Translations under genes and position numbers: made by a program | In this document: piece by piece, positions 3,781 to 40,384 of the stretch | Layout of the letters: the number at the start of each line of letters is the position of its first letter | Position numbering within the stretch: the stretch's first letter is position 1 | Notes under the pieces: generated by a model | Database searches by the model: none | Told to the model about the DNA's origin: nothing | What the model saw: only the letters and a program-made list of their open reading frames with translations | Assembly (NCBI GenBank): GCA_012728375.1 | Contig: JAAYFF010000019.1 | Span: forward strand, 1-48,279 | Direction of reading: 5' to 3' | Origin: Bacillota bacterium | GTDB lineage: Bacteria; Bacillota; Dethiobacteria; DTU022; UBA8154 | Length of the DNA stretch: 48,279 bases

Positions 3781-3835
3781 AAATCCACCTTTTTCGTATG
3801 TTGTCATAGGTATATTATAACATATTTGTTGATTT

Positions 3836-6220: not shown

Positions 6221-6253
6221 AGGGTTGCCATACAGAAAAAGGTGTTATTTGCT

Positions 6254-9200
6254 GTGTTTATAGCTGATTTCCATATTCATTCCAAATACTCAAGGGCTAC
6301 AAGCAAGGATTGTGCGCCGGAGTTGCTCAATTTCTGGGCACGGCGCAAAGGAATCGGCGTGATTGGTACGGGCGATTTTACCCACCGGGCCTGGCGGGAG
6401 GAACTGAAGGAGAAGCTTGTTTCCTCCGGAGATGGCCTTTATTCCCTTAAAAAGGAGTTCCATCAAGGGGATGAGGTGGCCGGAGCAGATCTAGAGCCGA
6501 AATTTATTGTTACCGGAGAAATAAGCTCTATCTACAAAAAAAATGGAAAAGTCAGGAAAGTGCACAACTTGATCATTTTGCCGGGTCTGGAAGATGCGGA
6601 AGCAATATCGCGGCGCCTTGAAGCCATCGGCAATTTGCATTCCGACGGACGGCCCATCCTGGGCCTTGACAGTAAAATTTTGCTGGAGATAGTGCTGGAG
6701 ATATGTCCGGACGCGATCTTTATTCCCGCCCATATCTGGACCCCTCATTTTTCTCTCTATGGCGCATACTCGGGTTTTGACCACATCGAAGAATGTTTTG
6801 AGGATCTTACCGGATGCATATATGCCCTGGAAACGGGCCTCTCCTCGGATCCTCCCATGAACTGGCGTCTTTCCGCACTGGACAAATTTACACTGGTTTC
6901 CAACTCCGATGCCCATTCCCCGGCAAACCTGGGCAGAGAAGCGAACATTTTTAATACCGAACGTTCTTATCAGGGCATATTGCAAGCTTTAAAAAACCCC
7001 GGCGCAGAAGAGTTTTCCGGCACAATAGAGTTTTTTCCGGAGGAAGGCAAATACCACTATGACGGCCACAGAGCGTGCAAGGTCTGCTTCAAGCCCGCGG
7101 AAACAAAAGCTGCAGGGGGCATCTGCCCCGTCTGCGGCGGCAGAATTACGGTGGGTGTCCTTCACCGGATTGAGGAACTGGCAGACAGGGATGAAGGGTT
7201 TGTTCCGCCGACAGCCAAGCCTTTTGAAAGTCTCGTTCCCCTTCATGAGGTCATCGCAGCCTCCACCGGCTATTCCGTTACCAGCAAAAAGGTGAAGGAA
7301 AAGTACGATGAGCTGATACGTAACCTGGGAGCGGAATTTTTTATCCTTCGGGAGGCATCTTTAAGGGATATCGAGCTGGCGGCAGGACCGCACATCGCAG
7401 AAGGCATCCGCAGGCTGAGAAGCGGCCGGATTGAAAGAAAGCCGGGATTTGACGGGCAATACGGTACAATTACCATACTGGACAAAAGCGAAATTGAGAA
7501 GCTTTCGGGCCAGTTATCCTTTATATATGATGTAAAGAGCCCTTATAAAAAAGACGGGCCAGCACCTAAAATTAAGCAGCAGCAGCAGAAGAAGAAGAAG
7601 AAGAAGAAAAAGAGTACCCCTGCAAAAGCGGATGAGCCTCTTCCAGATGCTAACCCTCTACCGGCTGTTCTCTATGGTTTAAACGAAGAACAGTGGAAAG
7701 CCGTTACCTCCTCCAGCCAGGCAATCGCTGTAATCGCAGGCCCTGGAACCGGGAAAACAAAAACCCTGGTGTCCCGTATCGCCTACCTCGTGGAAAAGTG
7801 CAACATTAAGCCCGCCCATATAACCGCGGTTACCTTTACCAATAAGGCTGCTGCTGAGATGCGCTCGCGCTTGGAGAACCATTTTGCAGGGGCGCATCTT
7901 GCTGAGAAAATAAGCATCGGTACGTTTCACTCCATCTGCCTGCAAATCCTGTCCGGATGGAAGGGCAAGGATAAGGTGACCGTTATTGATGAATATCAGG
8001 CCCTTTCCATTGTCGAAGAAATATTAAAGGAGAAAAAGTTAACCGTTTCTCCCCGCAATGTGCTGCGGGATATCTCCCTGCTCAAAAGCGGTGTCTTCCC
8101 GGAGGATAGAGAAAAAGCAGCTTTCCTAGCGGACATATTCGGCTTGTATTGCTCGAAGCTTCAAAGTTACGGGGTTCTGGACTATGACGATATCCTTCTG
8201 GAAGTCCTTCATCGGCTAACCACAGGGGATGAAGGGGAGACGGGCGTGGAAAACCTTTTCTCCTATCTGTTGGTGGATGAATTTCAGGATATCAACGAGA
8301 TTCAATACCGCTTAATTAAGGAATGGGCTAAAAGAAGCAAGAGCGTTTTTATCATCGGTGACCCCGACCAGGCGATTTATGGTTTCAGGGGTTCGGATTT
8401 CCGCTACTTTGCCAGGTTCATGGAAGATTATCCCGGCGCGCAGCAAATCCGTTTAACTTCCAATTATCGCTCCACCCCCGAGATCATTGCTTCTGCGACG
8501 GCAGTAATCTCCTCACAAAAAACAGAAGGCCGCACCTTTTCCCTTGAAGCAAAAAGAGAAAGCGGCGCCAGGGTGCGCCTGGTGGAAACGGGCAGCGACT
8601 TTTCAGAGGCGCTTTTTGTGGCCAAAGAAATAAATCGTCTCGTTGGCGGAATCGATATGCTTGATACTCAGGCAGTACCTGCACTTAAGAGAAAAAGTCC
8701 GGCAGCAGAGCAACAGAGAGGCTTTTCCGATATCGCTGTCCTTTACCGCACCAATCGCCAGGCGGAAATACTGGAGCAGTGTTTTTTAAAGGAGGGCATC
8801 CAGTACGTGGTCGCCGGGCGTGACGAGTTTCTGGCCGATAAGCCTGTCGTTGAAGCGCTGGCGTTTTTCCGGTTTTTGCTCAACCCCGGGGATATCGCTT
8901 CACTGCTGGTTTGCCTTAAGGCGGAAAGCATCTGCCCGGCGAATTTGCGTCAAAAAGTTCTGGAAAGTTACCTTGGCGCTGAGAAAAGCGTATCATCCCT
9001 GGCGAAGATATGGGAAGGGGTCCAAATGTCGCCGAGTCAGCCGGACAGGCCCTGGAACTTCATCGCCAAGTTAAAGAAATATGCAGCACTTATCAACAAA
9101 GAAAAACCGTGGAAAATTATCGAAACCTGGATTAACGAACACAACTTGACGGATCTGAGAAGTATGGAGCTTCTTTTAAATACTTCTATTATGTATGATG

Positions 9201-9586
9201 AGATGTCTTATTTTCTGCAAAATCTCGTTCTGGGCCGTGAAAGCGATGTTGTCCGCAGCGGCAGGAAGGTTTACGCCGCGGATGCGGTTCAGCTGATGAC
9301 ATTGCATGCGGCAAAAGGCCTTGAGTTCCCCATTGTGTTCATTTGCGGCGTCAATGACGGTATGATTCCGTTAAGGAACAGCAGCTCCGGCTCTGATTCG
9401 GAAGAGGAGAGGCGGCTTTTCTATGTGGGGATGACAAGGGCTCAGGATGAGCTGATCCTCCTCACATCCCGCACCCCGTCCACCTTTATCGGAGATATAC
9501 CTCCTGAAAAGCTCGTCAGAGAGAATGCTTTTACACTGAAGAAAGCCCCCCAATCCCAATATAAGCAAGTAAGCCTTTTTGATTAG
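6254..9586 (+). CDS. EndoQ-type PHP nuclease fused to UvrD/PcrA-like SF1 helicase
   Basis: Residues 1-400 match the PHP-fold EndoQ family (TIGR00375 type), which nicks DNA 5' of deaminated or abasic sites. Visible motifs are DFHIHSKYSR, GTGDFTH, IPAHIWTPHFSLYG and SNSDAHSP for metal binding, and a four-Cys zinc site (CKVCF...CPVCGGRITVGV). A Gln/Lys linker of about 15 residues follows. The rest is an SF1A helicase: Walker A AGPGTGKT near 494, VDEFQDINEIQ, GDPDQAIYGFRG, TSNYRST, LHAAKGLEFP and VGMTRAQDEL. The protein ends in QVSLFD, which fits the beta sliding clamp binding motif. GTG 6254 is chosen because AAAAAGG lies 11 bases upstream and homologues start close to this motif; GTG 6242 is an alternative. 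Likely role: repair of deaminated bases, with nicking and unwinding in one chain. Confidence 0.85.
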   Translation: MFIADFHIHSKYSRATSKDCAPELLNFWARRKGIGVIGTGDFTHRAWREELKEKLVSSGDGLYSLKKEFHQGDEVAGADLEPKFIVTGEISSIYKKNGKVRKVHNLIILPGLEDAEAISRRLEAIGNLHSDGRPILGLDSKILLEIVLEICPDAIFIPAHIWTPHFSLYGAYSGFDHIEECFEDLTGCIYALETGLSSDPPMNWRLSALDKFTLVSNSDAHSPANLGREANIFNTERSYQGILQALKNPGAEEFSGTIEFFPEEGKYHYDGHRACKVCFKPAETKAAGGICPVCGGRITVGVLHRIEELADRDEGFVPPTAKPFESLVPLHEVIAASTGYSVTSKKVKEKYDELIRNLGAEFFILREASLRDIELAAGPHIAEGIRRLRSGRIERKPGFDGQYGTITILDKSEIEKLSGQLSFIYDVKSPYKKDGPAPKIKQQQQKKKKKKKKSTPAKADEPLPDANPLPAVLYGLNEEQWKAVTSSSQAIAVIAGPGTGKTKTLVSRIAYLVEKCNIKPAHITAVTFTNKAAAEMRSRLENHFAGAHLAEKISIGTFHSICLQILSGWKGKDKVTVIDEYQALSIVEEILKEKKLTVSPRNVLRDISLLKSGVFPEDREKAAFLADIFGLYCSKLQSYGVLDYDDILLEVLHRLTTGDEGETGVENLFSYLLVDEFQDINEIQYRLIKEWAKRSKSVFIIGDPDQAIYGFRGSDFRYFARFMEDYPGAQQIRLTSNYRSTPEIIASATAVISSQKTEGRTFSLEAKRESGARVRLVETGSDFSEALFVAKEINRLVGGIDMLDTQAVPALKRKSPAAEQQRGFSDIAVLYRTNRQAEILEQCFLKEGIQYVVAGRDEFLADKPVVEALAFFRFLLNPGDIASLLVCLKAESICPANLRQKVLESYLGAEKSVSSLAKIWEGVQMSPSQPDRPWNFIAKLKKYAALINKEKPWKIIETWINEHNLTDLRSMELLLNTSIMYDEMSYFLQNLVLGRESDVVRSGRKVYAADAVQLMTLHAAKGLEFPIVFICGVNDGMIPLRNSSSGSDSEEERRLFYVGMTRAQDELILLTSRTPSTFIGDIPPEKLVRENAFTLKKAPQSQYKQVSLFD

Positions 9587-9718
9587 GGGGCCAGCACGCT
9601 TTGTCAATTATTTCCTAAACTTTGCCGCCGGGAATTTGATATGCTGCCATTCAGGGGTGTGCTCTTAAGGAAAAGGCCTATTTTTTTATTTTTCATTCTT
9701 TTCCCTGTTCTTTCTTCG

Positions 9719-10546
9719 CTACTCAACCTTCGGCACCGGCTTGAACCCCCATTTCTCCCAGACGGCCATCGCTTTTTTACCGGCGGTAAACTCAACAAAG
9801 CGATTTGCCATTTCCGGGTTGGCAGAGCATTTCAAAGAGACAACCGGGACGGTTTTAATATAATCGGCAAAAACTGCCGTTTCAATCAGTTCCACATCTT
9901 CGCTACCTAGCAGATTATCTTCCCAGATAATTGCAGCATCTGCCTGCTTCAGGGCGAGGTAAGTAAAAAGCTCATTGACCGTTGCCGTCCGGGCAACAAC
10001 ATTTGGTTCAACTTTATCAAAAATACCATACTCTTTGAGCACCTTATCAGCCAGCTTACCGATGGGGTTTGCTTCGGGGTCGCCGAGAACCACCTTAACC
10101 CCCGGGGCACCGAGATCTTCTATCCCGGTAATACCGGCAGGGTTACCCTGAGGAACGGCAAGCACAGGGACATGAAAGACTACCTCTTTTTGCCGGTCGA
10201 TCATCTCCCTTTCAATCAACTCCTTTAACTCCGCCACATCCCCCGGAAGGAAGGCATCTCCCTTGTCGACGGTAAGAATCTTGCCGATACACTGGGCTGA
10301 ACCCCCAAAGGAGAATTGGACCAGAATACCCGTTTCTTCCTGAAACATCACCGCTATCTCTTCCATGGGTTTGCGCAGACCGGCACCACAGTACACCAGA
10401 AGTTCTTCTTGTTTGCTGCCCTGCTGTATCTCCTGATCTGCCCGGGGCAAGGCCGTCGTATCCGTTTCCCCGACTCCGCAACCTCCTGCTGCCCCCAAGA
10501 AAACAACAAGCAAAAATGCAAGACACATTTGCAAAAAGCTCTTCAA
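9719..10546 (-). CDS. modA: Molybdate/tungstate ABC transporter substrate-binding lipoprotein
   Basis: A lipoprotein signal peptide ends in AAGGC with Cys23 as the lipid attachment site. The mature protein has the ModA/WtpA-type fold signatures: LLVYCGAGLRKPMEEIA, VQFSFGGSAQCIGKI (oxyanion-binding Ser and Gly), VPVLAVPQGNP and a C-terminal VVSLKCSANPEMANRFVEF. It would capture molybdate or tungstate outside the membrane for the permease and ATPase encoded upstream. The start is TTG 10546, set by GGAGGG about ten bases before it. It is last in the minus-strand operon, 270 bases after modC, so a separate promoter is possible. Molybdate versus tungstate preference cannot be read from sequence by eye. 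Confidence 0.85.
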   Translation of the reverse strand: MKSFLQMCLAFLLVVFLGAAGGCGVGETDTTALPRADQEIQQGSKQEELLVYCGAGLRKPMEEIAVMFQEETGILVQFSFGGSAQCIGKILTVDKGDAFLPGDVAELKELIEREMIDRQKEVVFHVPVLAVPQGNPAGITGIEDLGAPGVKVVLGDPEANPIGKLADKVLKEYGIFDKVEPNVVARTATVNELFTYLALKQADAAIIWEDNLLGSEDVELIETAVFADYIKTVPVVSLKCSANPEMANRFVEFTAGKKAMAVWEKWGFKPVPKVE

Positions 10547-10816
10547 TTAATATCCCTCCATCCCAGTGAACTTTGCTCCAACTCCCAAGCCTCATTTCCA
10601 CTTCCACAGCTCTTTTCCTGAAGCAAACTTTTCTCCCTTAATTGCTCACCAAGGCGCAGTTTTTCCTCGCATAAACATGCAATGTTATATTTCCGGGTAA
10701 TTTGTTAATCATGCCTTCCCTCAAAGCAAAAATTTTAGCCGGTTAATAATTAAAGACTTATTACCCAGCCGCCTGCGACAATGCTTCTTTCTTGTTGTTC
10801 CGGAACAGGTTGGGCT
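10547..10816. other. Intergenic region between modC and modA
   Basis: This 270-base gap inside the minus-strand mod cluster holds no open frame I would accept. I looked for a Moco riboswitch and do not see its conserved core. On the minus strand the only clear signal is the GGAGGG site for modA. A separate weak promoter for modA is possible but not identified. Confidence 0.5.
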
Positions 10817-11545
10817 TCATCCTGCAAAAACGGTTTTCAAAGGCTCCGCCCCCAGAAAGCTTGCCACCTTCTGATCCAGGGGGTTTTCAAAGACTTCCCT
10901 GGAAACCCCTACCTGTCTTACCCTCCCCTCCAGGATAATTCCGATCCGGTCTGCCAGCATCCCCGCTTCGTTAAAATCATGGGTAACATGGACAACAGTA
11001 TATCGGTATTGCAAATGCATTTTTTTCAGTTCCCGGCATAGCATTCTTTTTGTATTAGGATCGAGGGCGCCGAAGGGTTCATCCAATAAAAGAATCCTCG
11101 GTTTCATGATAAAGGCTCTGGCCAAGGAGACGCGCTGCTGCTCGCCACCGCTTAAAGTGCCGGGGAAACGCTTCAGCAAGTGGGAAATTCCCAGCATATC
11201 AGCCAGATCTTTTACCCTTTCTTTAATTATGGGAGAGGGAATCTTGCCGAGCTGAGGCCCAAAGGCAATGTTTTTATAAACATTCAGATGGGGGAAAAGG
11301 GCATAATCCTGGTAAACAAACCCGATTTCTCTTCTCTCGGGAGGAATGTTTTCAGCATCAACTCCATTAATAAAAACCTTACCCGCATCCGGTCTGTACA
11401 ACCCGGCAATCAATTCCAGAATAACGGTTTTCCCGGTACCCGTCGGCCCCAGGATGGTAAAAAATTCTCCCTCTTTTATCTCTAGATTAACATTCTTTAG
11501 CGAAAAATCTCCCAGTTTAATGGATACATCTGCAAATCTGATCAT
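10817..11545 (-). CDS. modC: Molybdate/tungstate ABC transporter ATP-binding protein
   Basis: This 242-residue ABC ATPase has Walker A GPTGTGKT at 33-40, a Q-loop in VYQDYALFPH, signature [14 protein letters not shown], Walker B ILLLDEPFGALD and an H-loop in VVHVTHDFNEA. The opening and the signature follow the ModC/WtpC/sulfate importer group. It lacks the C-terminal MOP domain of classical ModC, so it is the short type seen in tungstate or WtpC-like systems. It powers import through the ModB permease encoded upstream. About 40 bases separate it from the DUF364 gene, consistent with one transcript. Confidence 0.85.
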   Translation of the reverse strand: MIRFADVSIKLGDFSLKNVNLEIKEGEFFTILGPTGTGKTVILELIAGLYRPDAGKVFINGVDAENIPPERREIGFVYQDYALFPHLNVYKNIAFGPQLGKIPSPIIKERVKDLADMLGISHLLKRFPGTLSGGEQQRVSLARAFIMKPRILLLDEPFGALDPNTKRMLCRELKKMHLQYRYTVVHVTHDFNEAGMLADRIGIILEGRVRQVGVSREVFENPLDQKVASFLGAEPLKTVFAG

Positions 11546-11584
11546 TATCCGACATCCTCAAAGCGTGTTTTTGCAGGCTCCTGA

Positions 11585-12298
11585 TTACGATGATACGGGA
11601 CAAAATCTTTTCAAAGATAGGAGCTTAGCCAAGGCAGCGACAGTTGTTCCATAAAAAAGGATCGGTTTTTTTACTTTCAGGAAGGGATCAATGCTCCCAT
11701 TTACGACCGTGCTCCCCGTCGCCAGAAACAGATCGCACCACTTTTCCACCGCCGCCAGGTCGCATTCCCCGTTTTCAATGGTAACACCATATTTTTTTTG
11801 ACCGATATTTTCCGGATCAAGGTCAAAGACCCTTATTTCAAAATGTTGGGCAAGTTTTTCAACCATGGCAGGCTGAAGCCCGATTACGGCAATGCGTGGC
11901 TTTCCATACTCCGAGGAGATAGCTTCGATAAGTATCTGACTGCATTCGCCCGGTTGTGCATCCTTGCAATGAATGGTGTTTGCTGCTTTGTCCAGTTTGC
12001 GACAGAGGGCATTGAGCGTAGATATAATGACAGCCCGGTTGTAGTTGTTAACTGGGGGAAGATGCAGAGCATCATGCAATGTGCCTTCGTAATTACCCGG
12101 CATATCCGTAAAGGCCTGACCTATAAAACCATCAATAACTGCTTGCATCAGTTTCTCCTTGCCCTTCTGGAGAGGAAAATCGCTCCTTCCCGGGGAGCCG
12201 ATGGCCTCCTCCGGGGTAAGTGTTTTGCAGGAAATTGACACATTTGCTTTAGAAAGATTGGGGTTCTGCAAAAACTTTTCAATATGGGGCTGAAGCAT
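11585..12298 (-). CDS. DUF364 protein (putative heavy-metal chelation domain) in the mod operon
   Basis: The protein is 237 residues. Its C-terminal half has a Rossmann-like pattern (IAVIGLQPAMVEKLAQHF, VFDLDPENIG, CDLFLATGSTVVNG) and the N-terminal half the enolase-like part common to DUF364/DUF4213 proteins (QAFTDMPGNYEGTLHDAL). The start ATG 12298 lies one base after the modB stop, with GAGGTG inside the end of modB, so translation is likely coupled. It is sandwiched between permease and ATPase genes, which ties it to molybdate or tungstate handling. The biochemical function of the family is not established; a chaperone or sensing role for the imported oxyanion or cofactor is inference. 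A paralogue lies at 33735. Confidence 0.75.
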   Translation of the reverse strand: MLQPHIEKFLQNPNLSKANVSISCKTLTPEEAIGSPGRSDFPLQKGKEKLMQAVIDGFIGQAFTDMPGNYEGTLHDALHLPPVNNYNRAVIISTLNALCRKLDKAANTIHCKDAQPGECSQILIEAISSEYGKPRIAVIGLQPAMVEKLAQHFEIRVFDLDPENIGQKKYGVTIENGECDLAAVEKWCDLFLATGSTVVNGSIDPFLKVKKPILFYGTTVAALAKLLSLKRFCPVSS

Positions 12299-12299
12299 T

Positions 12300-13109
12300 T
12301 TAAACACCTCTGGTACCTCCAATAAAATCACCTCCAAATTTATTAAAGATATATAAAGATATTATTGAAATTATTATGAGCAGATTTGCTGCTGCCATAG
12401 CCCCTTCCAAATCTCCGGTGGACATATTTAAAAAAAGGGAAATCGGCAATGTTTCTGTGCGAAAGCGGGTAGCTCCGGCCAGCATCAAAGCCGCACCAAA
12501 TTCTCCCAACGCCCGAGCCCAAGTAATTACAGTCCCCGCGATGATGCCGTTTTTCGAAAGCGGCAGGGTAATTTTCCAAAAAGCCTGGGCCGGCGTGCAT
12601 CCCAAGGTCCGCGCAATAAATTCCAAACGGGGATTAACAGATAAAATCGTCGACTTCATGACCCGAATCATGAAGGGGAGATTGACAAATATTTGAGCCA
12701 TAATGATCCCCTTTACAGTAAAAACAAAGGAAAGGTCGATCTCTTCCAGCCAGGCCCCAAAGGCTGTTGTGCCAAAAATGATCAGGAGGCAAAGGCCTGA
12801 AACCACCGGCGGTAAAGCCAGAGGCAGATCCAACAAAGTATTGAAAAAAGATTTCATGGGGATATCCATCCTGGCCAGAACATAAGCCACAGGGATGGCA
12901 ATTACGATGCAGAAAGCCGTAGAGATCAGCGATGTATAGAGACTTAACCTGATAGCAAACTGAATCTCGGGGGCGGCAAGAGCTTTGCCGATCTGCGGAA
13001 GACCCTTGATCATTAAAGTTGCAACAGCAGTCATCATAAAAAGAAAAGTAAAAAAGGCTACAGCAACCATAAAAAGGTTAAACTTGTCTTGCCACCAATT
13101 TTTCTTCAT
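12300..13109 (-). CDS. modB: Molybdate/tungstate ABC transporter permease
   Basis: The 269-residue integral membrane protein has about six hydrophobic segments and the inner-membrane importer signature EAA-like loop ARTLGCTPAQAFWKITLPLS followed by GIIAGTVITWARALGEFGAA, typical of ModB/CysT/WtpB permeases. It forms the channel for molybdate or tungstate with ModC. It is the first gene of the minus-strand operon modB, DUF364, modC, modA. The start ATG 13109 has GGAGG-like GGAGGTTTGC just upstream. The region before it (13110-13412) has AT-rich promoter-like sequence, but I could not pick a convincing -35/-10 pair. Confidence 0.85.
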   Translation of the reverse strand: MKKNWWQDKFNLFMVAVAFFTFLFMMTAVATLMIKGLPQIGKALAAPEIQFAIRLSLYTSLISTAFCIVIAIPVAYVLARMDIPMKSFFNTLLDLPLALPPVVSGLCLLIIFGTTAFGAWLEEIDLSFVFTVKGIIMAQIFVNLPFMIRVMKSTILSVNPRLEFIARTLGCTPAQAFWKITLPLSKNGIIAGTVITWARALGEFGAALMLAGATRFRTETLPISLFLNMSTGDLEGAMAAANLLIIISIISLYIFNKFGGDFIGGTRGV

Positions 13110-13412
13110 AGCAAACCTCCGACCAATGCTTCCAGTTGTATGTAATATATTCTATCATAAAGCTAAATCTTCCTGCTTGCGAGGCAAAACTTTGTCCAGA
13201 AATCCTGCAAATGCTTTTTAAAAAAAGCTCTATCTTTTTAATAAGCATTTATGAAACCCTAAAAATGTTACCTGATTTTAGAGTGTACATAAGTTGAGAA
13301 ACATCGCCGCCAAGCTGCCACGCAAGATCCAAAAAGATTGCCTGGACCATGTTAAAAGAGTCTTTTATACAGATTCTTAACCTACAGTGCCTTGAGACGA
13401 TCTTTTTATGTA
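13110..13412. other. Divergent intergenic region before modB and the Mn riboswitch
   Basis: About 300 bases with no coding frame. It must contain the modB promoter on the minus strand; AT-rich candidates lie near 13140-13160 but are not decisive. No ModE-like palindrome was recognised. No second riboswitch is seen on either strand. Confidence 0.4.
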
Positions 13413-13442
13413 TTGACTCTAAGTATGGCTTCGTTATATAAT
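13413..13442 (+). promoter_or_regulatory. Sigma-A type promoter for the Mn riboswitch and exporter operon
   Basis: TTGACT at 13413-13418 and TATAAT at 13437-13442 are separated by 18 bases. Transcription would start close to 13449, right at the 5' edge of the riboswitch aptamer. Confidence 0.75.
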
Positions 13443-13447
13443 AAGGG

Positions 13448-13550
13448 TGAAAAGGGGAGTAGCTGGCAGGTTAATTGCCGATCCGGGCCAACAATCACGG
13501 TACTTGTACCTGGCCCGTCGCTTGTATGGACAAGTAGCAAGACCTTTGGC
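13448..13550 (+). ncRNA. yybP-ykoY manganese riboswitch aptamer
   Basis: The conserved 5' strand AAAGGGGAGTAGC (13450-) and 3' strand TAGCAAGACCTTT (13535-13547) are both present and form the closing helix known from Mn2+-sensing yybP-ykoY aptamers. Between them lie a GGCA/TGCC hairpin, a long arm CGGGCCA...TGGCCCG containing the internal loop AACAATCAC, and a CTTGT...ACAAG arm. The family senses Mn2+ and usually turns on export or metal-homeostasis genes. The 3' strand of the aptamer is shared with the following terminator, so ligand binding should prevent termination (ON switch). Confidence 0.9.
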
Positions 13551-13580
13551 ATGACAAATCGTGTCAAAGGTCTTTTTTTC
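13539..13580 (+). terminator. Riboswitch expression-platform terminator
   Basis: AAGACCTTTG (13539-13548) pairs with CAAAGGTCTT (13565-13574), followed by a run of T to 13579. The 5' arm overlaps the conserved 3' strand of the Mn2+ aptamer, so terminator and aptamer are mutually exclusive. Confidence 0.9.
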
Positions 13581-13657
13581 ATGAAATTTAAACGCAGCCC
13601 GGGTTCATATTTTTATGCTAAGAGGAAAATTTCGGCCGTATAAAAGGTGGTGAAAAT

Positions 13658-14365
13658 GTGAGCAATGTAATCCTGAAAGGCAAAAAGGTAAGCAAATGGT
13701 ACAAAATGGGGGAGGTGCGCGTAGACGCCTTAAAAAAAGTCACCTTTGAAATTTATCAAGGGGAGTTTATCGTTGTGCTGGGTCCCAGCGGTTCAGGTAA
13801 GAGCACCTTGCTCAATATCATAGGCGGTATGGACCAGGTTAGCGAAGGGGAGCTGTTCTACCAGGGCAGCCCGCTTCATGGGGCGGAAGAAAGTGTTGTT
13901 ACACGTTACCGCCGCAACGCGGTCGGTTTTATTTTTCAGTTTTACAACCTGATGCCTAATCTTACAGCCTTTGAAAATGTCCAGTTGGCAACGGAGATAG
14001 CAACTGATCCTCTCCCCGCGGCGGATATTTTAGCCGAAGTGGGCCTGGCGGACCGGGCGGGACATTTTCCCGCGCAGCTTTCCGGCGGTGAGCAGCAGCG
14101 GGTGGCCGTTGCCCGGGCTGTGGCCAAAAACCCGGAGCTTTTGTTATGCGATGAACCGACCGGTGCCCTGGATCTTAAAACAGGTATTCAAATATTGAAA
14201 TTGCTGCGAGACTTCAATATTAAATATAAGAAAACAGTCATGGTAATTACACATAATGCCAGCATCGCAGATATGGCAGACCGGGTTTTCAGCTTAAAAG
14301 ACGGTGAACTGGCATCTGTCCGGGTAATCGACAATCCCAAATCCCCGGAAGAGGTGAGCTGGTAA
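13658..14365 (+). CDS. MacB/LolD-type ABC exporter ATPase
   Basis: This 235-residue ATPase has Walker A GPSGSGKS at 42-49, Q-loop in [10 protein letters not shown], signature [14 protein letters not shown] and Walker [13 protein letters not shown]. The TGALD extension and overall layout are those of the MacB/LolD/FtsE group, which drives type VII mechanotransmission transporters. The start is GTG 13658 behind AAGGTGG; an ATG three bases upstream is followed at once by a stop codon. The stop overlaps the next start (TAATG), so the permease is translationally coupled. Expression is under the upstream Mn2+ riboswitch, which suggests a role in manganese or envelope stress export; the substrate is unknown. 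Confidence 0.9.
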
Positions 14366-32456: not shown

Positions 32457-33218
32457 ATGAGTTCGGACAAACCATCTGGAATTGAGAAGATACAACGTCA
32501 AGAAATTAAGCATGTCATCGCAGTGGGTAGCGGTAAAGGGGGAGTAGGCAAGTCTTCCATTACTTCTCTTTTGGCTGTAGGAGCCTGCAGGGAAGGTTTT
32601 AAGGCGGGTATTCTCGATGCGGATATCACAGGTCCGAGTATACCCAAGATGTTTGGTTTAAAAAACAATTCCATGAACAAGGGCTTTATCCCTCTGGAAA
32701 CTTCACGGGGAATAAAGGTTATGTCCTTAAATTTACTGCTTCCCAGCGAGGATGATCCCGTAATTTGGAGGGGACCATTGATTGGCGGTGCAGTAAAACA
32801 GTTTTGGACAGAAGTTGACTGGGGAGAACTGGATTATCTCTTTATCGACCTTCCTCCGGGTACGGCCGATGCTCCATTAACAGTTATGCAATTTATTCCA
32901 CTAGATGGACTGGTTATCGTCAGTTCCCCGCAAGACCTTGCGGTAATGGTTGTCAAAAAGGCTTTGAAAATGGCAGCGGCAATGAATGTTCCGGTACTTG
33001 GTTTAATTGAAAATATGAGTTATTTACTTTGCCCCTCATGCGGAGACAAACTGGAAATTTTCGGGGCAAGCAAAGCCAAGGAAGTAGCAACAATAACAGG
33101 CGTACCTCTGATCGACATTCTTCCTCTGGACAAGAAGCTGGCCGAATACTGCGATAATGGTCTAATTGAAAATTACGACACCGATTTATTTAAAAAACTG
33201 AATGTGCAAAAAAGCTGA
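32457..33218 (+). CDS. mrp: Mrp/NBP35-type Fe-S cluster carrier ATPase
   Basis: A 253-residue ATPase with deviant Walker A GSGKGGVGKSS near residue 22, ILDADITGPSIPKMFGL, WRGPLIGGAVKQFWTEVDWG, FIDLPPGTADAPL and the C-terminal Cys pair in LLCPSCGDKLEIFG, which binds a bridging [4Fe-4S] cluster in the dimer. The family carries Fe-S clusters to apo-proteins. It is the first gene of a transcript with an IscU-like scaffold 34 bases downstream, under the TTGACATATG promoter. No ferredoxin insert, unlike the MinD proteins at 21-23 kb. Confidence 0.9.
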   Translation: MSSDKPSGIEKIQRQEIKHVIAVGSGKGGVGKSSITSLLAVGACREGFKAGILDADITGPSIPKMFGLKNNSMNKGFIPLETSRGIKVMSLNLLLPSEDDPVIWRGPLIGGAVKQFWTEVDWGELDYLFIDLPPGTADAPLTVMQFIPLDGLVIVSSPQDLAVMVVKKALKMAAAMNVPVLGLIENMSYLLCPSCGDKLEIFGASKAKEVATITGVPLIDILPLDKKLAEYCDNGLIENYDTDLFKKLNVQKS

Positions 33219-33252
33219 AAAAAGAATGGAGAGATAGGAGGTTTGATGAGAA

Positions 33253-33633
33253 ATGATGTACTCGGAAAAAGTACTGGAACATTTTTTGAACCCCAAAAAT
33301 TTAGGCTATATTCTCGAGCCTGACGGTGTGGGAAAGATGGGGGATCCTTCGTGTGGAGATTATTTGCATATTTATATCAAAGTTAAAGATAACCGCATCG
33401 CGGATATCAAATTCGAAATTTTGGGTTGTCCGGCAGCTATCGCGACAAGCAGTGTACTTACGGAACTGGCAGAAGGAAAAACCCTTGACGAGGCATTAAA
33501 GATTACAGATGATGATGTTGTCAAAGCCCTTGGCGGGTTGCCCGATCCCAAGGTACACTGTTCTAATCTTGGAGCGGAGGCGCTCCACCGCGCTGTGGAG
33601 GACTACCTGGATAAAGTAAAATTTAAAAAATAA
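33253..33633 (+). CDS. IscU/NifU-N-like Fe-S scaffold protein
   Basis: A 126-residue protein with all three scaffold cysteines: GDPSCGDYL (Cys34), LGCPAAIATSS (Cys59) and KVHCSNLG (Cys103), plus the Asp in the first motif. The layout is that of IscU/NifU-N domains, which assemble Fe-S clusters. No cysteine desulfurase is adjacent. ATG 33253 follows GGAGG. It pairs with the Mrp gene upstream, so scaffold and carrier are co-expressed. Confidence 0.9.
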   Translation: MMYSEKVLEHFLNPKNLGYILEPDGVGKMGDPSCGDYLHIYIKVKDNRIADIKFEILGCPAAIATSSVLTELAEGKTLDEALKITDDDVVKALGGLPDPKVHCSNLGAEALHRAVEDYLDKVKFKK

Positions 33634-35078: not shown

Positions 35079-35107
35079 AAGCGCCTCGCAGGAGGCGCTT
35101 TTTTTTG
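35079..35107 (+). terminator. Intrinsic terminator
   Basis: AAGCGCCTC pairs with GAGGCGCTT around a four-base loop, followed by a run of T. It ends the DUF364/carbonic anhydrase transcript. Confidence 0.9.
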
Positions 35108-35199
35108 GGGGTAATGATCTGCACGTCATATTAAGGAACTATTTTTATCATGAAAACATAAATTAGACTGCTAGATAAAAAGTGGAGGCATTAAAAGAA

Positions 35200-35979
35200 A
35201 TGATAAAAGAAATTACTATTTTCCCTGGTATTGACAAGAACGGTTTTAAGGAAAAATTTACATATATAAAACTTAAAGCCGGTGAAACCGTTTCCATAGT
35301 GGGGCCCACAGGTAGCGGCAAGACGGCTTTTATTACTGACATCGAACTTCTGGCCCAGGGGGATACTTCCACAAAACGACGCGTTATTATTAACGGTGAA
35401 ATACCGACAGATGAAATCAGATACAACCCCTCCATGAAACCTATCGTTATGATTACACAGAATACCAAGTGTTTTGCTGATTTAACCACGGAAGAATTCC
35501 TGCAAATTCATGCCCGCGCCAGGAAGATTTATGACCAAAAAGTAATTCAGGCAACAATTGATTTAGCAAACACATTTACAGGTGAAAAGATAAAAAGAGA
35601 TACCAGGGTGACTGTTCTTTCCGGGGGGCAGACAAGATCCCTTTTAATAGCCGATGCAATTCTAATCGGAGCTGCTCCGGTAATTTTACTCGATGAAATT
35701 GAAAATGCCGGTATTTTCAAGCAGGAAGTCGTCAGCCTGATTCACAATACGGGCAAAATAGTCATTTTTGTAACCCATGATCCAGTTATTGCCTTGTTGA
35801 CGAAAACGAGGATAATTATGGAAAATGGAGCTGTTAAAAATATTTTGTACCAAAACGAGCCGGAGATAAAAGTTGCACAAAACCTTTTGGAGCTGGATAA
35901 GAAAATTGGCCATGTAAGGGAGGAACTGAGGGCTGGAAAAGCAATTACTTATGATTTTCTTTCTGTAAATTTTGCCTAG
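35200..35979 (+). CDS. Stand-alone ABC-type ATPase (no permease) of the ATPase/GTPase/Fe-S triad
   Basis: A 259-residue ABC ATPase: Walker A GPTGSGKTAF, Q-loop in VMITQNTKCFADL, signature LSGGQTRSLLIADAIL, Walker B VILLDEIENAG, H-loop in VIFVTHDPVI. The last 50 residues are a charged helical tail. No permease gene is near, so it is unlikely to be a transporter. It is the first of three close genes (GTPase, Fe-S protein). ATG 35200 is preferred to GTG 35182 because GGAGG lies between them. An ATP-driven chaperone step in cofactor insertion is a hypothesis. Confidence 0.75.
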   Translation: MIKEITIFPGIDKNGFKEKFTYIKLKAGETVSIVGPTGSGKTAFITDIELLAQGDTSTKRRVIINGEIPTDEIRYNPSMKPIVMITQNTKCFADLTTEEFLQIHARARKIYDQKVIQATIDLANTFTGEKIKRDTRVTVLSGGQTRSLLIADAILIGAAPVILLDEIENAGIFKQEVVSLIHNTGKIVIFVTHDPVIALLTKTRIIMENGAVKNILYQNEPEIKVAQNLLELDKKIGHVREELRAGKAITYDFLSVNFA

Positions 35980-36011
35980 TGGAAAGATAATAACCGGGAT
36001 GGTGAGCTGTT

Positions 36012-36722
36012 GTGAAACTCGTTGTAATTGCCGGCCCTCCTTCAGCAGGAAAAACATCGCTTATTAAGCAGATTGTAAAAAGGTTTAAAGATGAGATAAC
36101 CATAGCCTTTTTAAAAATTGACGTGGTAAAAGCCTTTGAGGATATTGAGCTAAAAAAAGAGTTCGGTATTCTTACGAAAAAAGTATATTCCGGCGATTTG
36201 TGCCCTGATCACGCCGGAGTAATGGTGCTGGGCGATGCTGTGGCATGGGCGGAAAAAAGTGCTGCCGATCTTTTGATAGTCGAGAGCGCCGGATTGTGCC
36301 TGCGTTGTTCGCCATATTTAAACCAGGGCTTGGGAATTATCGTTCTCAGTTCCATTTCAGGTATTCATGTCCCCGAAAAAATGGGAGCGATGGTCAGTCT
36401 GGCCGATGTCGCGGTAATTACAAAAATAGATCTGGTCAGCCAAGCAGAACGGGAAGTGCTCATTCAAAAAATTAAAGAAGTACATACCGGAATTATCCTC
36501 ATGGAAACAAATGCCCTTCAGGGAAATTCCTTGCATCGCCTGTATAAACTCATCAAGAACTCGCCGGATATAGATAAAGACAATCTTTTTTTAAAAGGAA
36601 ACCCACCGCTGGGGACATGTACAATCTGCGTGGGTAAAAAAGAAGTCGGCTGGAAACATCATTTTGGGGTAGTGCAAAAGCTTGATGGTCCTTTCGCCGA
36701 ATATCTTTACCGGGGTGAATAA
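36012..36722 (+). CDS. CobW/HypB/UreG-like P-loop GTPase
   Basis: A 236-residue SIMIBI-type GTPase: Walker A GPPSAGKTSLIK at 8-, LLIVESAGLCLRCSPYL as switch and Walker B region with a Cys-x2-Cys, TKIDLV as the guanine-specificity motif. A second Cys pair plus two His lie near the C-terminus (GTCTICVGKKEVGWKHHFGV), a plausible metal site. HypB, UreG and CobW relatives insert nickel, cobalt or zinc into enzymes. The GTG start at 36012 lies 33 bases after the ABC ATPase and the stop is two bases before the next start. The client enzyme is unknown. Confidence 0.75.
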   Translation: MKLVVIAGPPSAGKTSLIKQIVKRFKDEITIAFLKIDVVKAFEDIELKKEFGILTKKVYSGDLCPDHAGVMVLGDAVAWAEKSAADLLIVESAGLCLRCSPYLNQGLGIIVLSSISGIHVPEKMGAMVSLADVAVITKIDLVSQAEREVLIQKIKEVHTGIILMETNALQGNSLHRLYKLIKNSPDIDKDNLFLKGNPPLGTCTICVGKKEVGWKHHFGVVQKLDGPFAEYLYRGE

Positions 36723-36723
36723 G

Positions 36724-37380
36724 ATGCTTGGAAAAATCAAACCTTCTTGGATACCTCCCGGTAAAAATTGTGGTCTTTGCGGTGAGAAAAACTGCCGAAC
36801 TTTTATCCGTCTGCTTAATGCCGGAGCAAAAGTTTATACGGACTGCCCGTATTACTGTGATCCTCTATTCTCCAAGAAAAGGGACTTTTTAACCGAAGCA
36901 GAATATCCTGAGAAAGATATCCTGGGACATTCTTATGATTTTGTCCTTGGACCTTTGCCGGGGGAGATTTCTGCCCGCAAAATAGTGCTTCCCTTTCGGG
37001 GGGATGTAGTGGAAAAATTGGATATCAAGGCAGGAGACTTTGTTCTGGGAAGGCCGATGGGCGCCGGCTGTCCCATACCTCATGTCTTGCAGGTTATAAA
37101 AGCTGAAAGCATTACGGGATTGCTTTATACCTGGGTTGTAGGGCCAAAGTTTTCCCGGGAACACGAAAGCAAGGATATTGTTGCCTATCACATGATTGGT
37201 TTTGAAGGCCTTGCCGTCAAAATTAACAAAGAGCCTGTTTTCGGCTGCCGTGCTACCTTTTTGCCGGGTTTCTGCATGATGTCCATTAACCATACCGGGG
37301 TCGTTAATATGTTATTGCAAAAAAGCAGTGGATTGCACATCCGAATTGAGGATATCAGAATATTAGCCGGAAGGGAATAA
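36724..37380 (+). CDS. Fe-S domain protein (CdhD/AcsC-type N-terminal cluster motif)
   Basis: A 218-residue protein. The N-terminus has CGLCGEKNC and a fourth Cys in TDCPYYC (Cys16, 19, 24, 41), the C-x2-C-x4-C-x16-C pattern of the 4Fe-4S domain found in corrinoid Fe-S proteins and Rnf subunits. The remaining 170 residues contain GRPMGAGCPIPHVLQV and a beta-rich domain I cannot name. ATG 36724 directly follows the GTPase stop, with GGGGTG before it. It is the last of the three coupled genes and may be client, scaffold or metal acceptor for the pair upstream. Confidence 0.75.
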   Translation: MLGKIKPSWIPPGKNCGLCGEKNCRTFIRLLNAGAKVYTDCPYYCDPLFSKKRDFLTEAEYPEKDILGHSYDFVLGPLPGEISARKIVLPFRGDVVEKLDIKAGDFVLGRPMGAGCPIPHVLQVIKAESITGLLYTWVVGPKFSREHESKDIVAYHMIGFEGLAVKINKEPVFGCRATFLPGFCMMSINHTGVVNMLLQKSSGLHIRIEDIRILAGRE

Positions 37381-37637: not shown

Positions 37638-38033
37638 ATGAATGAAGTGTTAAAGTTTTTAACAGACAACCCTGTGTTTTATTTTGCTACCGTTGATAAA
37701 GATAAGCCGAAGGTTCGCCCTTTTGCTTTTGTTATGATTTATGAAGGCAAGCTTTGGTTTTGCACCAATAACCAAAAAGATGTCTACAAACAGCTGCAAG
37801 CAAATCCATATTTTGAGATATGCACAACAGCACCGGATAAGAAATGGATCCGTCTTAAAGGAAAAGCTGTGTTTAATTCTACTCCAGCCGTCAAGGCAAA
37901 GGCCCTTGAGGTGGCACCTGAACTTAAGAACATGTACTCTGTGGATGATTCTATTTTTGAGGTGTTTTATGTGGCAGAAGGCGAGGCTACCTTTTATTCC
38001 CTGACGGGCGAGATTAAAACAATTAAACTTTAG
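37638..38033 (+). CDS. Pyridoxamine 5'-phosphate oxidase-fold (flavin/F420-type) protein
   Basis: A 131-residue single-domain split-barrel protein: NPVFYFATVDKDKPKVRPFAF, GKLWFCTNNQKDVYKQLQANP, WIRLKGKAVF. This group binds FMN or related cofactors; true PNPOx activity is unlikely. GGAGG eight bases before ATG 37638 sets the start. The 3' end overlaps the convergent ABC ATPase gene by four bases. Confidence 0.85.
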   Translation: MNEVLKFLTDNPVFYFATVDKDKPKVRPFAFVMIYEGKLWFCTNNQKDVYKQLQANPYFEICTTAPDKKWIRLKGKAVFNSTPAVKAKALEVAPELKNMYSVDDSIFEVFYVAEGEATFYSLTGEIKTIKL

Positions 38034-38788
38034 GCTAACCTGCTCAAAAACGCCCTGGTCCGTTCATTTTTTGGATTATCGATTACTTCTTCCGGGCGTC
38101 CTTCTTCAACGATAACGCCTTCATCCATGAAAATAATATGATCAGCCACATCTCTGGCAAAGCTCATTTCATGGGTTACAATTACCATAGTCATCTGTTC
38201 TGCGGCCAAATCCCTGATAACCTTTAAAATTTCTCCCGTTAGCTCCGGATCGAGTGCAGATGTGGGTTCGTCAAAAAAAAGCACCTTTGGATTTAATGCC
38301 AAAGCCCTGGCAATAGAAACACGCTGCTGCTGACCTCCTGATAATTGGTACGGATATGCATTTTCTTTATCGGATAAGGCCATTTTTTCTAACAATTTCC
38401 GGCCAATTTCCAAAGCCTCTTTTTTACTCTTTTTTTGCACGGTAATGAGCGCATCTGTCACATTTCTTAGAACAGAGAAGTGAGGAAACAGGTTAAAATT
38501 TTGGAAAACCAGGCCAAAATAGCCCTGAATTTTTTTAAGTTGTCTGCTTGGCGCAAAAACTGCTTTTCCGTCTGCACCGGTTTTAACAGCGTATTCTCCC
38601 AAATAAAGCAGTTCGCCGGAATCTATTGTCTCCAGCAAGGTGGCACATCTTAACAGAGTGGACTTTCCGGAGCCGGACGGTCCAATAATAGCAACAACCT
38701 GTCCCTCCTCAACATCTAAGGAAATATCCTTTATCACTTCGAGGTCACCAAAACTTTTTTTTAAATTTCTAATTTCCAGATACTTCAT
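38030..38788 (-). CDS. Polar amino acid ABC importer ATPase (GlnQ-type)
   Basis: A 252-residue ATPase with Walker [11 protein letters not shown]-loop VFQNFNLFPHF, signature LSGGQQQRVSIARAL, Walker B VLFFDEPTSALDPEL and VTHEMSFARDVADHIIFMDEG, typical of GlnQ/HisP. ATG 38788 is set by AGGAGG just upstream; the frame is open further but without support. It is the last gene of the operon binding protein, permease, ATPase on the minus strand. Confidence 0.9.
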   Translation of the reverse strand: MKYLEIRNLKKSFGDLEVIKDISLDVEEGQVVAIIGPSGSGKSTLLRCATLLETIDSGELLYLGEYAVKTGADGKAVFAPSRQLKKIQGYFGLVFQNFNLFPHFSVLRNVTDALITVQKKSKKEALEIGRKLLEKMALSDKENAYPYQLSGGQQQRVSIARALALNPKVLFFDEPTSALDPELTGEILKVIRDLAAEQMTMVIVTHEMSFARDVADHIIFMDEGVIVEEGRPEEVIDNPKNERTRAFLSRLA

Positions 38789-38801
38789 ATCCGGCAACCT
38801 C

Positions 38802-39452
38802 CTATTTGAAATAGTTGAATTTATTCTCAACCCATTCCATGAAAAATGCCACGATAAAATTAAAGACATAATAAAAAATACCCGCTGCAACAAAGGGGAG
38901 TACGGATCTCTGAGCTGAGGCGATAGCTTTTGCCGCTGTAAACATCTCTGAAACAGAGATAACGAAGGCCAGGGAAGTATCCTTTATCAGGGTAATAACT
39001 TCATTTGTCACCGGCGGAAGGATGCGCTTAATCACCTGCGGCAGTATTATGCGGATAAATGTCTGGGTTTTATTATAACCCAGTACTTTTGCCGCCTCAT
39101 ATTGTCCTGCCGGCATGGATTCGATTCCGGCGCGATAAATCTCTGCAAAATATGCCGCATAGTTTAAAACAAATCCTATAATAACTGCGATAAAGCGGTA
39201 GCCCTTGGGGGTGGTAATGCCAAAAATAAAATAAGGCCCAAAATAGACCACCATTAGCTGGAGCATTAGTGGAGTTCCCCGCATGATTGAAATATATATT
39301 TTAATTGTATTTCTTAAAAACGGGTTTTTGGACATGCGGCCAAAGGCGACGAAAAGCCCCAGCGGGAGGGAAAAAAGCAGCGTAAGGGTAAAGATCTCAA
39401 CCGATATAAGCATGCCTTCCGCTAATTTTAACAGTAAAACCTGCCATTGCAC
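38802..39452 (-). CDS. Polar amino acid ABC importer permease
   Basis: A 216-residue membrane protein of the HisM/GlnP group: MRGTPLMLQLMVVYFG, YAAYFAEIYRAGIESMPAGQ, and the EAA loop EAAKVLGYNKTQTFIRIILPQ followed by KDTSLAFVIS. Five transmembrane segments are visible. It lies 14 bases from the ATPase start downstream. The binding-protein gene upstream is separated by a hairpin terminator, which would give more binding protein than permease. Confidence 0.9.
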   Translation of the reverse strand: MQWQVLLLKLAEGMLISVEIFTLTLLFSLPLGLFVAFGRMSKNPFLRNTIKIYISIMRGTPLMLQLMVVYFGPYFIFGITTPKGYRFIAVIIGFVLNYAAYFAEIYRAGIESMPAGQYEAAKVLGYNKTQTFIRIILPQVIKRILPPVTNEVITLIKDTSLAFVISVSEMFTAAKAIASAQRSVLPFVAAGIFYYVFNFIVAFFMEWVENKFNYFK

Positions 39453-39472
39453 TGCTCTGCCTCCATTTCCAC

Positions 39473-39514
39473 AAAGAAAGGGCTATCTCGTTTGAAACGA
39501 CAGCCCTTTCTTTA
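39473..39514 (-). terminator. Internal hairpin between binding protein and permease genes
   Basis: AAAGAAAGGGCT (39473-39484) and AGCCCTTTCTTT (39502-39513) pair around a loop that itself contains TCGTTTGAAACGA. On the minus strand T-rich sequence follows the stem, so this is a leaky internal terminator in the ABC operon. Confidence 0.75.
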
Positions 39515-39541
39515 ATTAATTTTATCTATTTATTCATATTT

Positions 39542-40384
39542 TTATTTGCCAATTGTGGTTATATCTTTGCCAAACCACTTCTCGGAGATTTCTGCCATTG
39601 TACCATCGGCAGCCATTTCTTCCAAAGTGGTCTGAACTATATCCCTTAAAGCTTCGTTTCCTAATAAGAACCCCACGCCATAATCTTCCGCTGCCAGTGA
39701 TTCTTCCAATACTACAAAATCTTTTTCTCTTGATTCTATTTGATAGTTCGCGACTGTTTCATCCATGGCTACTGCATCGACCGCACCTGATTCGAGATCC
39801 ATCAAGGCGCTTAAATAATCGGCTGCCTTTATGTAATCTCCAAAGGTATCAACCAGATCCTGTCTGTCTGCGAGCGCTGCTTCGGCGCTGGAGTCCGCCT
39901 GGACAACGACCGTTTTGCCGGCTAAATCTGCGAAAGAAGTTATATCCGAATCAGCTTTTACAACAAAAACCTGCTTATTGGACATATAAGGCACGGTCCA
40001 AGTATAGTCGTCCTCACGTCCGTTGATTGTAAAGCCGTTCCAAATACAATCAATGTTTTTACTGGAAAGTTCCATATCCTTTGCATCCCAAGCAATAGGC
40101 TGCAAAACGAGTTCCAACCCTAAACGGTCGGCAACTTCCGCTGCCAAATCCAAGTCAAAACCGGTAAACTCTCCGTCATCGCCGACGAATCCCATTGGAG
40201 GGAAGTTTTGATCGAATCCTACTGTAAGTTTTCCTTCCACAACTGTTGGTATTTCATTCCCTGTTGCTTCTTCCGGTGTTTCACCGGCTCCGCCGGGAAC
40301 TTCGCTTGGCTCGTTTGATGAACAAGCGGCCAAGCTTAGCATCAGCAGCAATGCCAGTCCCACTAGTAAAAGTTTTTTCCCCAT
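39542..40384 (-). CDS. Polar amino acid ABC importer substrate-binding lipoprotein
   Basis: A 280-residue lipoprotein: signal peptide LLLVGLALLLMLSLAAC with Cys21, a Glu/Pro/Gly linker, then the solute-binding protein family 3 domain: GKLTVGFDQNFPPMGFVGDD, GFDLDLAAEVADRLGLE, FADLAGKTVVVQADSSAE, and DAVAMDETVANYQI. The ligand is an amino acid; which one is not readable by eye. Start ATG 40384 has AGGGGG upstream. Confidence 0.9.
   Translation of the reverse strand: MGKKLLLVGLALLLMLSLAACSSNEPSEVPGGAGETPEEATGNEIPTVVEGKLTVGFDQNFPPMGFVGDDGEFTGFDLDLAAEVADRLGLELVLQPIAWDAKDMELSSKNIDCIWNGFTINGREDDYTWTVPYMSNKQVFVVKADSDITSFADLAGKTVVVQADSSAEAALADRQDLVDTFGDYIKAADYLSALMDLESGAVDAVAMDETVANYQIESREKDFVVLEESLAAEDYGVGFLLGNEALRDIVQTTLEEMAADGTMAEISEKWFGKDITTIGK

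Follow-up and report, generated by a model that had tools for sequence, protein, structure and literature searches.

The locus

The window, a 48,279-nucleotide stretch of DNA from a Bacillota bacterium, carries three neighbouring open reading frames encoding an ABC ATPase, a GTPase and an Fe-S protein (hereafter the trio), which lie where they were first noted. They are separated by 32 bases (ABC ATPase to GTPase, previously given as 33) and by the 1 base originally counted between the GTPase and the Fe-S gene. The ABC ATPase starts at an ATG at 35200; an in-frame GTG exists upstream at 35182, but homologues begin at the ATG. The features are as follows, the Walker, signature and P-loop motifs being read from the sequence.

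35079..35108, + strand: intrinsic-terminator-like hairpin (stem 35079-35100) and T run, by consensus scan only
35200..35979, + strand: permease-less ABC ATPase, 259 aa (Pfam and homologue comparison; co-conserved in 72/74 loci)
35302..35325, + strand: Walker A of the ABC ATPase, GPTGSGKT (K41 invariant)
35617..35631, + strand: ABC signature, LSGGQ
35680..35697, + strand: Walker B of the ABC ATPase, VILLDE (D165 and E166 invariant)
36012..36722, + strand: HypB/CobW-type GTPase, 236 aa (Pfam, NCBIfam, alignment to 2hf8)
36033..36056, + strand: P-loop of the GTPase, GPPSAGKT
36201..36212, + strand: C64-P-D-H67 of the GTPase, invariant in 70 sequences and aligned with the C-H metal ligands of MjHypB (2hf8)
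36297..36308, + strand: C96-L-R-C99 of the GTPase, invariant, in the region of the second Cys ligand of HypB
36618..36662, + strand: C203-x2-C206 ... H217, a GTPase-specific C-terminal Cys/His cluster, invariant
36724..37380, + strand: COG2000-type Fe-S protein, 218 aa (Pfam and PDB match; the COG2000 name is taken from PMC12068725, not computed)
36769..36846, + strand: 4Fe-4S motif C16-x2-C19-x4-C24-x16-C41 (PF04060, AcsC/CdhD type), four Cys invariant in 71 sequences
36889..37377, + strand: beta-rich domain with invariant C116, H120, C184 and H190 (conservation and predicted structure)

About 1.6 kb upstream of the trio, on the same strand (32457-33633), are genes for an Mrp/NUBPL-type Fe-S carrier ATPase and an IscU/NifU scaffold, and the space up to the trio is filled by DUF364/DUF4213 and gamma-carbonic-anhydrase-like genes. 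The stem at 35079-35100 with its T run, which comes from a consensus scan whose overall number of terminator-like stems is not above that of shuffles, sits between the gamma-carbonic-anhydrase-like gene and the trio; because this hairpin intervenes, joint transcription of the Mrp-like and IscU-like genes with the trio is unlikely. Just downstream, on the opposite strand (38030-40384), there is a polar-amino-acid-type ABC transporter with ATPase, permease and binding protein, as judged by sequence.

The three proteins

The ABC ATPase matches Pfam ABC_tran (6.5e-15). In agreement with the earlier note, it has all the expected motifs, including an H-loop at H193, and no membrane partner; its catalytic residues K41, D165, E166 and H193 are invariant among homologues. 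A check for pairing with a permease elsewhere found none, as no permease family recurs beside the trio in the loci from Bacillota and methanogens, and an ABC permease partner was rejected. The amino-acid transporter at 38030-40384 has an ATPase of its own and lies on the other strand.

The GTPase matches Pfam cobW (6.2e-13) and the HypB model TIGR00073 (2.3e-17), with 63.2 bits against a cut-off of 121.2 bits; NCBIfam gives only sub-threshold matches for the trio proteins, the best being this one. The two Cys pairs and the His pair described before are all present (C96/C99, C203/C206 and HH 216-217), with C64-P-D-H67 in addition. Residues C64, D66, H67, C96, C99, C203, C206 and H217 are invariant, and H216 is kept in 60% of the sequences. 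When the GTPase is aligned to 2hf8, C64 and C96/C99 come close to the HypB ligands and the His is shifted to H67. The protein keeps HypB-like positions of putative metal ligands, C64 aligning with the Cys of the MjHypB C-H pair.

The Fe-S protein matches Pfam FeS PF04060 (2.7e-8) and, in the PDB, the large subunit of the corrinoid iron-sulfur protein (4djd_C, 7.5e-5), its PDB matches to corrinoid proteins being limited to residues 8-52. The CdhD/AcsC-type cluster motif noted before is thus confirmed, with its four Cys invariant. The remainder, described as an unrecognised beta-rich domain, stays so: it belongs to no Pfam family, and its model, predicted alone with pLDDT 86.8 and pTM 0.82, finds no confident fold match in the PDB (Foldseek best E 0.30, VIA-align best Z 3.8), nor does that of the whole protein (best E 0.14 and best Z 4.0), a result that neither shows nor excludes a new fold. 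The invariant C116, H120, C184 and H190 form a candidate second metal or substrate site.

Conservation of the gene set

When one genome per species was scanned, 23 relatives of the Fe-S protein turned up, in Bacillota and methanogens. Together with loci from two genome sets, a few genomes being taken twice, 74 loci were read, and the order ABC-GTPase-FeS is kept in 72 of them, across two domains; the exceptions are a masked locus where the GTPase is missing (L019) and one cut by the contig start (L079). Such constancy excludes a chance neighbourhood, and the proposals that the three genes are a real, tightly spaced unit and that they co-occur across genomes have both held up. In a concatenated tree the bacterial copies group in a single clade next to one of methanogens.

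Some individual loci deserve mention. In L078 the trio is interrupted by a cysteine desulfurase gene, placed with an overlap between the GTPase and Fe-S genes, and the whole region (3379-14113) is a sulfur and Fe-S super-locus in which ThiF, SsuA-like, IscU-like, second desulfurase and SufB/SufC-like genes surround the trio. Genome G462 has a second trio copy (L068, 1295-12067) beside ThiF, ThiS, SsuA-like, cysteine-synthase-like, RamA-like and MtaA-like genes. An Epulonipiscium-labelled MAG carries a divergent trio amid B12-binding radical SAM genes (L022, 1757-9976), in a genome without ComA and HcyBio. Three loci of one clade (L010, L012, L021) have a TauE/SafE-like membrane protein and, by eye, a CBS-domain protein upstream of the trio. 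L016, recorded as Desulfovibrio sp. MAG, has its trio inside the Dethiobacter-like Bacillota clade and is probably mislabelled or misbinned.

In methanogens this gene set has been depicted before: Fig 2B of Chadwick et al. 2025 places a COG2000 Fe-S protein, an ATPase and a “Ni2+ binding GTPase” beside coenzyme M genes, and the passages of that paper devoted to the set report co-localisation only and call its role unknown (PMC12068725). No functional study of the trio was found in the literature searched. Its bacterial occurrence, its link to ComA, its complementarity with ATP sulfurylase and its clean deletion, described below, are new with respect to the same literature.

Genomic partners in two domains

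ComA joins sulfite to phosphoenolpyruvate, and cysteate synthase joins sulfite to phosphoserine. Among 39 archaeal trio loci, cysteate synthase is a neighbour in 31 and ComDE in 27, in the main cluster; a short ComD cluster lies near the trio in 6 loci, and COG1900 proteins are found in 23 (the two tested are MMP16/TIGR03287). At the genome level, with genomes that are not independent and with counts and p values, here and below, not corrected for phylogeny, cysteate synthase occurs in 48/49 archaea with the trio against 38/148 without it (p=6e-21; 197 genomes of one phylum), and ComA in 18/19 bacteria with the trio against 68/230 without it (p=2e-8; 249 genomes of the window's phylum). Bacterial trios were called at E below 1e-90, which gives the 19/249, as weaker matches cover only the short PF04060 stretch. 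These 19 genomes represent nine families, in eight of which the trio-bearing members have ComA, and a second, partly overlapping bacterial sample gives ComA in 18/20 trio-bearing genomes. ComA is missing from the trio-bearing bacteria G056, G259 and G269, and cysteate synthase from the trio-bearing G442.

No neighbour is conserved across the bacterial trio loci. In the window no coenzyme M gene adjoins the trio, and the ComA of the source genome is on another contig. Physical linkage does occur in L098, where comA, comB, ABC, GTPase and FeS genes are contiguous and codirectional, and in L099 and L009, where comA is directly upstream of the trio; ComA and ComB at the comA-adjacent loci were confirmed by Pfam. 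All of them fall in one clade and therefore count as one event. The ComDE model is over its cut-off in 0/249 bacterial genomes, so the common end product is not coenzyme M made by the archaeal route, which was rejected for the trio-bearing bacteria. Since ComA and cysteate synthase both add sulfite, the partner shared by the two domains is the sulfite-fixing step. A tie between the trio and sulfonate biosynthesis is, in our judgement, highly probable, and a link to this pathway of the trio as one functional unit, accessory to C-SO3 synthesis in methanogens and some anaerobic Bacillota, is well supported.

Whether or not the trio is present, comA in many Bacillota stands together with comB and with genes for an MFS-like transporter (27/40 loci) and a small DUF441-like protein (L107-L146). 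Genes of the YeiH family of putative sulfate exporters stand near comA in L132, L135, L139 and L146 (PF03601 was tested in L135), among the genomes read only in those lacking the trio.

Complementarity with ATP sulfurylase and a natural deletion

ATP sulfurylase (PF01747) served to mark the ordinary source of sulfite. Among sulfite-fixers of both domains it is present in 3/66 genomes with the trio against 40/106 without it, as seen with a profile that, of the possible sulfite-source markers (PF01747, CysDN-type ATP sulfurylase, CysH, Asr, Dsr and Fsr), covered PF01747 only. The figures are 1/18 against 30/68 for ComA-bearing bacteria (p=0.002) and 2/48 against 10/38 for archaea with cysteate synthase (p=0.004). 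Across all the bacteria, ATP sulfurylase is positively associated with ComA (31/86 genomes with ComA, 17/163 without; p=3e-6). ComA thus goes with ATP sulfurylase and the trio rarely coexists with it, which is the pattern of two alternative suppliers and one consumer. Within a single family (f14), four trio-bearing genomes have no ATP sulfurylase and two genomes without the trio have it. Both are found together in one bacterium (G061) and two archaea (G280, G306), and neither in 38 bacterial genomes with ComA and 28 archaeal genomes with cysteate synthase, so other sulfite sources must exist. In G347, which has cysteate synthase and neither the trio nor PF01747, a gene for a CysH-type PAPS reductase, a sulfite-making enzyme, lies directly upstream of the COG1900-cysteate synthase genes. 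For the source genome, no match to cysC/D/N/H/I/J appeared in 839 kb of 2.38 Mb (about a third).

A natural deletion is seen on comparing L155 (G300) with L087 (G307), whose flanks are 95-97.5% identical. The order in G307 is cysteate synthase-ABC-GTPase-FeS-ComD-ComE-MMP16; G300 lacks exactly the trio and keeps cysteate synthase, ComDE and MMP16, with a scar in which the opening codons of the ABC gene run into the closing codons of the Fe-S gene. In L163 (G354), too, the trio is missing next to cysteate synthase, ComDE and COG1900. The cassette is thus accessory and removable, which speaks against a maturase on which cysteate synthase, ComDE or MMP16 would depend and in favour of a replaceable supply function.

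Proposed function and rival explanations

Coenzyme M contains a sulfonate, so cells that make it by the known archaeal routes need sulfite. Yet most methanogens live on sulfide, and methyl-coenzyme M reductase is inhibited by sulfite. Where the sulfite for coenzyme M comes from has been described as unclear (PMC6286981). We tentatively favour, as a quite possible reading, that the trio is an accessory metal/Fe-S module supplying sulfite for the making of C-sulfonates in cells that lack sulfate activation. Sulfite would be the common need of both domains, and the trio would supply it from reduced sulfur, either sulfide or persulfide. The individual steps are the least certain part: the HypB-like GTPase could load a metal into the Fe-S protein at the C116/H120/C184/H190 site beside the 4Fe-4S cluster, the ABC ATPase, permease-less as SufC is, could drive a conformational step, and the sulfite used by ComA or cysteate synthase might arise from redox chemistry that the Fe-S protein performs or feeds. 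A supply role fits the genomic partners, the complementarity with ATP sulfurylase, the fact that the trio can be lost, and the cysteine desulfurase found within the trio of L078. Against it stand the possible confounding of ComA by spore formation in Bacillota, the position of all bacterial trios in one clade, and the enrichment of HcyBio within ComA-bearing bacteria (13/18 with the trio against 18/68 without it, p=6e-4). A bolder version, which we regard as doubtful, is that of a hitherto unknown anaerobic sulfite-making machine, in which a catalytic COG2000 Fe-S protein would convert reduced sulfur to sulfite, powered or gated by the ABC ATPase and the metal-loading GTPase; where sulfate activation is lacking, it would feed the synthesis of coenzyme M in methanogens and of sulfolactate-type compounds in anaerobic Bacillota. 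Nothing in the trio sequences shows any sulfite chemistry.

The earlier note had proposed a metal insertase or reactivase of a corrinoid or Fe-S enzyme. The HypB-like positions of putative ligands and the AcsC/CdhD motif speak for its metal side, and metal insertion inside the trio itself, from GTPase to Fe-S protein, is possible. The corrinoid role found no support: the conserved partners of the trio are cysteate synthase, ComA and further coenzyme M genes, no corrinoid enzyme recurs next to it across the loci read, and corrinoid-type neighbours are single cases (RamA-like and MtaA-like genes at the second trio copy of L068, a MetH-like gene seen by eye in L095, B12 radical-SAM genes in L022). 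A maturation or reactivation system for a coenzyme M pathway enzyme, with the ABC ATPase and GTPase building or inserting the centre and the Fe-S protein as scaffold or electron donor, seems to us unlikely. It would account for the conserved putative metal-ligand positions of the GTPase, for an ABC ATPase without permease as in SufC, for the SufB/SufC-like genes near L078 and L079 and the desulfurase within the trio of L078, and for the COG1900 neighbours, MMP16 being a metalloprotein with ferredoxin-like matches. However, there are otherwise syntenic operons, including the recent clean deletion, that have cysteate synthase, ComDE and MMP16 but no trio, and none of cysteate synthase (PLP), ComA and ComDE is known as an Fe-S or nickel enzyme. 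Maturation or reactivation dedicated to cysteate synthase or ComA is in particular disfavoured, because both occur without the trio (38/86 archaeal genomes having cysteate synthase, 68/86 bacterial genomes having ComA) and the natural deletion spares the pathway.

Decidedly unlikely, in our view, is an electron or sulfur donor for COG1900-type aldehyde thiolation, acting on MMP16 (coenzyme M synthase) in archaea and on L-ASST/HcyS (homocysteine) in bacteria. HcyBio is enriched among trio-bearing bacteria (14/19 against 67/230, p=1.6e-4), MMP16 (TIGR03287) directly follows the trio in L020, and the source genome has HcyS/COG1900 followed by NIL-ferredoxin-like and UPF0280-like ORFs (L025 1450-3798, contig C40 of G000; the latter two by eye), the set known for homocysteine synthesis in methanogens. 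But HcyBio is absent from G043, G047, G085, G137, G206 and several others, such as Heliobacterium (L014, L015), none of the bacterial loci read has COG1900 next to the trio, G300 retains MMP16 despite its trio deletion, and ComA, in 18/19, is the stronger partner; a strict dependence on HcyBio/COG1900, weaker than the ComA link and broken in 5/19 genomes, was rejected. The ComA association could also be a by-product of spore-forming, sulfate-free anaerobic life, the true function lying elsewhere, as the lack of a conserved neighbour at most bacterial loci and the single bacterial clade would allow; the linkage to a sulfite-fixing enzyme, seen independently in two domains, and the unbroken comA-comB-trio array leave this improbable. 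We give little credit to sulfonate salvage or desulfonation, in which the trio would release or handle sulfite from coenzyme M or from sulfonates taken up. SsuA-like binding-protein genes lie near the trio in L078, L068, L064, L070 and L023, and complete Ssu-type sulfonate transporter genes follow directly downstream of the coenzyme M operon in archaea lacking the trio (L156, 1950-4517; L162, 2443-5010), but the SsuA-like neighbour does not recur in bacteria or most archaeal loci, no permease accompanies it near the trio, and the set holds no known desulfonating enzyme.

The trio accompanies the sulfite-fixing enzyme in two domains and can be replaced; as a candidate sulfite source it is concrete and genetically testable, and may answer where oxygen-free microbes get sulfite for building sulfonates. 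The methanogen gene set now extends to culturable bacteria, such as Heliobacterium species (L014, L015).

Comparison with known systems

SufC of the SufBCD system is likewise a permease-less ABC ATPase working with Fe-S proteins, but the trio ATPase is not SufC by sequence, the unit has no SufB or SufD, and SufB/SufC-like genes stand separately in some trio regions. The nickel GTPases HypB and UreG (2hf8, 4hi0) share with the trio GTPase the G domain, in which C64 aligns at the Cys-ligand position of HypB and C96/C99 lie near its putative second Cys counterpart; in contrast, the trio protein scores below the HypB and UreG cut-offs, has the extra invariant C203-C206-H217, and is seen with no HypA, hydrogenase or urease partner gene. 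With AcsC/CdhE, the large subunit of the corrinoid iron-sulfur protein, the common element is the PF04060 4Fe-4S motif, about 40 residues of a 218 aa protein (AcsC/CdhE has about 440 aa) in which a beta-rich domain takes the place of the corrinoid-binding and barrel domains. The coenzyme M pathway enzymes (ComA-ComB, cysteate synthase-ComDE-MMP16) are genomic partners of the trio, although its proteins are not homologous to any of them and the enzymes are present also without it. The closest counterpart is the COG2000 trio of methanogen coenzyme M operons: by description and location it is the same three genes, with MMP16, cysteate synthase and ComDE as neighbours, in a figure and passages that do not treat the bacterial copies, the ComA link, the ATP sulfurylase complementarity or the clean deletion (PMC12068725). 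The trio of the window has the same genes in the same order, but sits outside a coenzyme M cluster.
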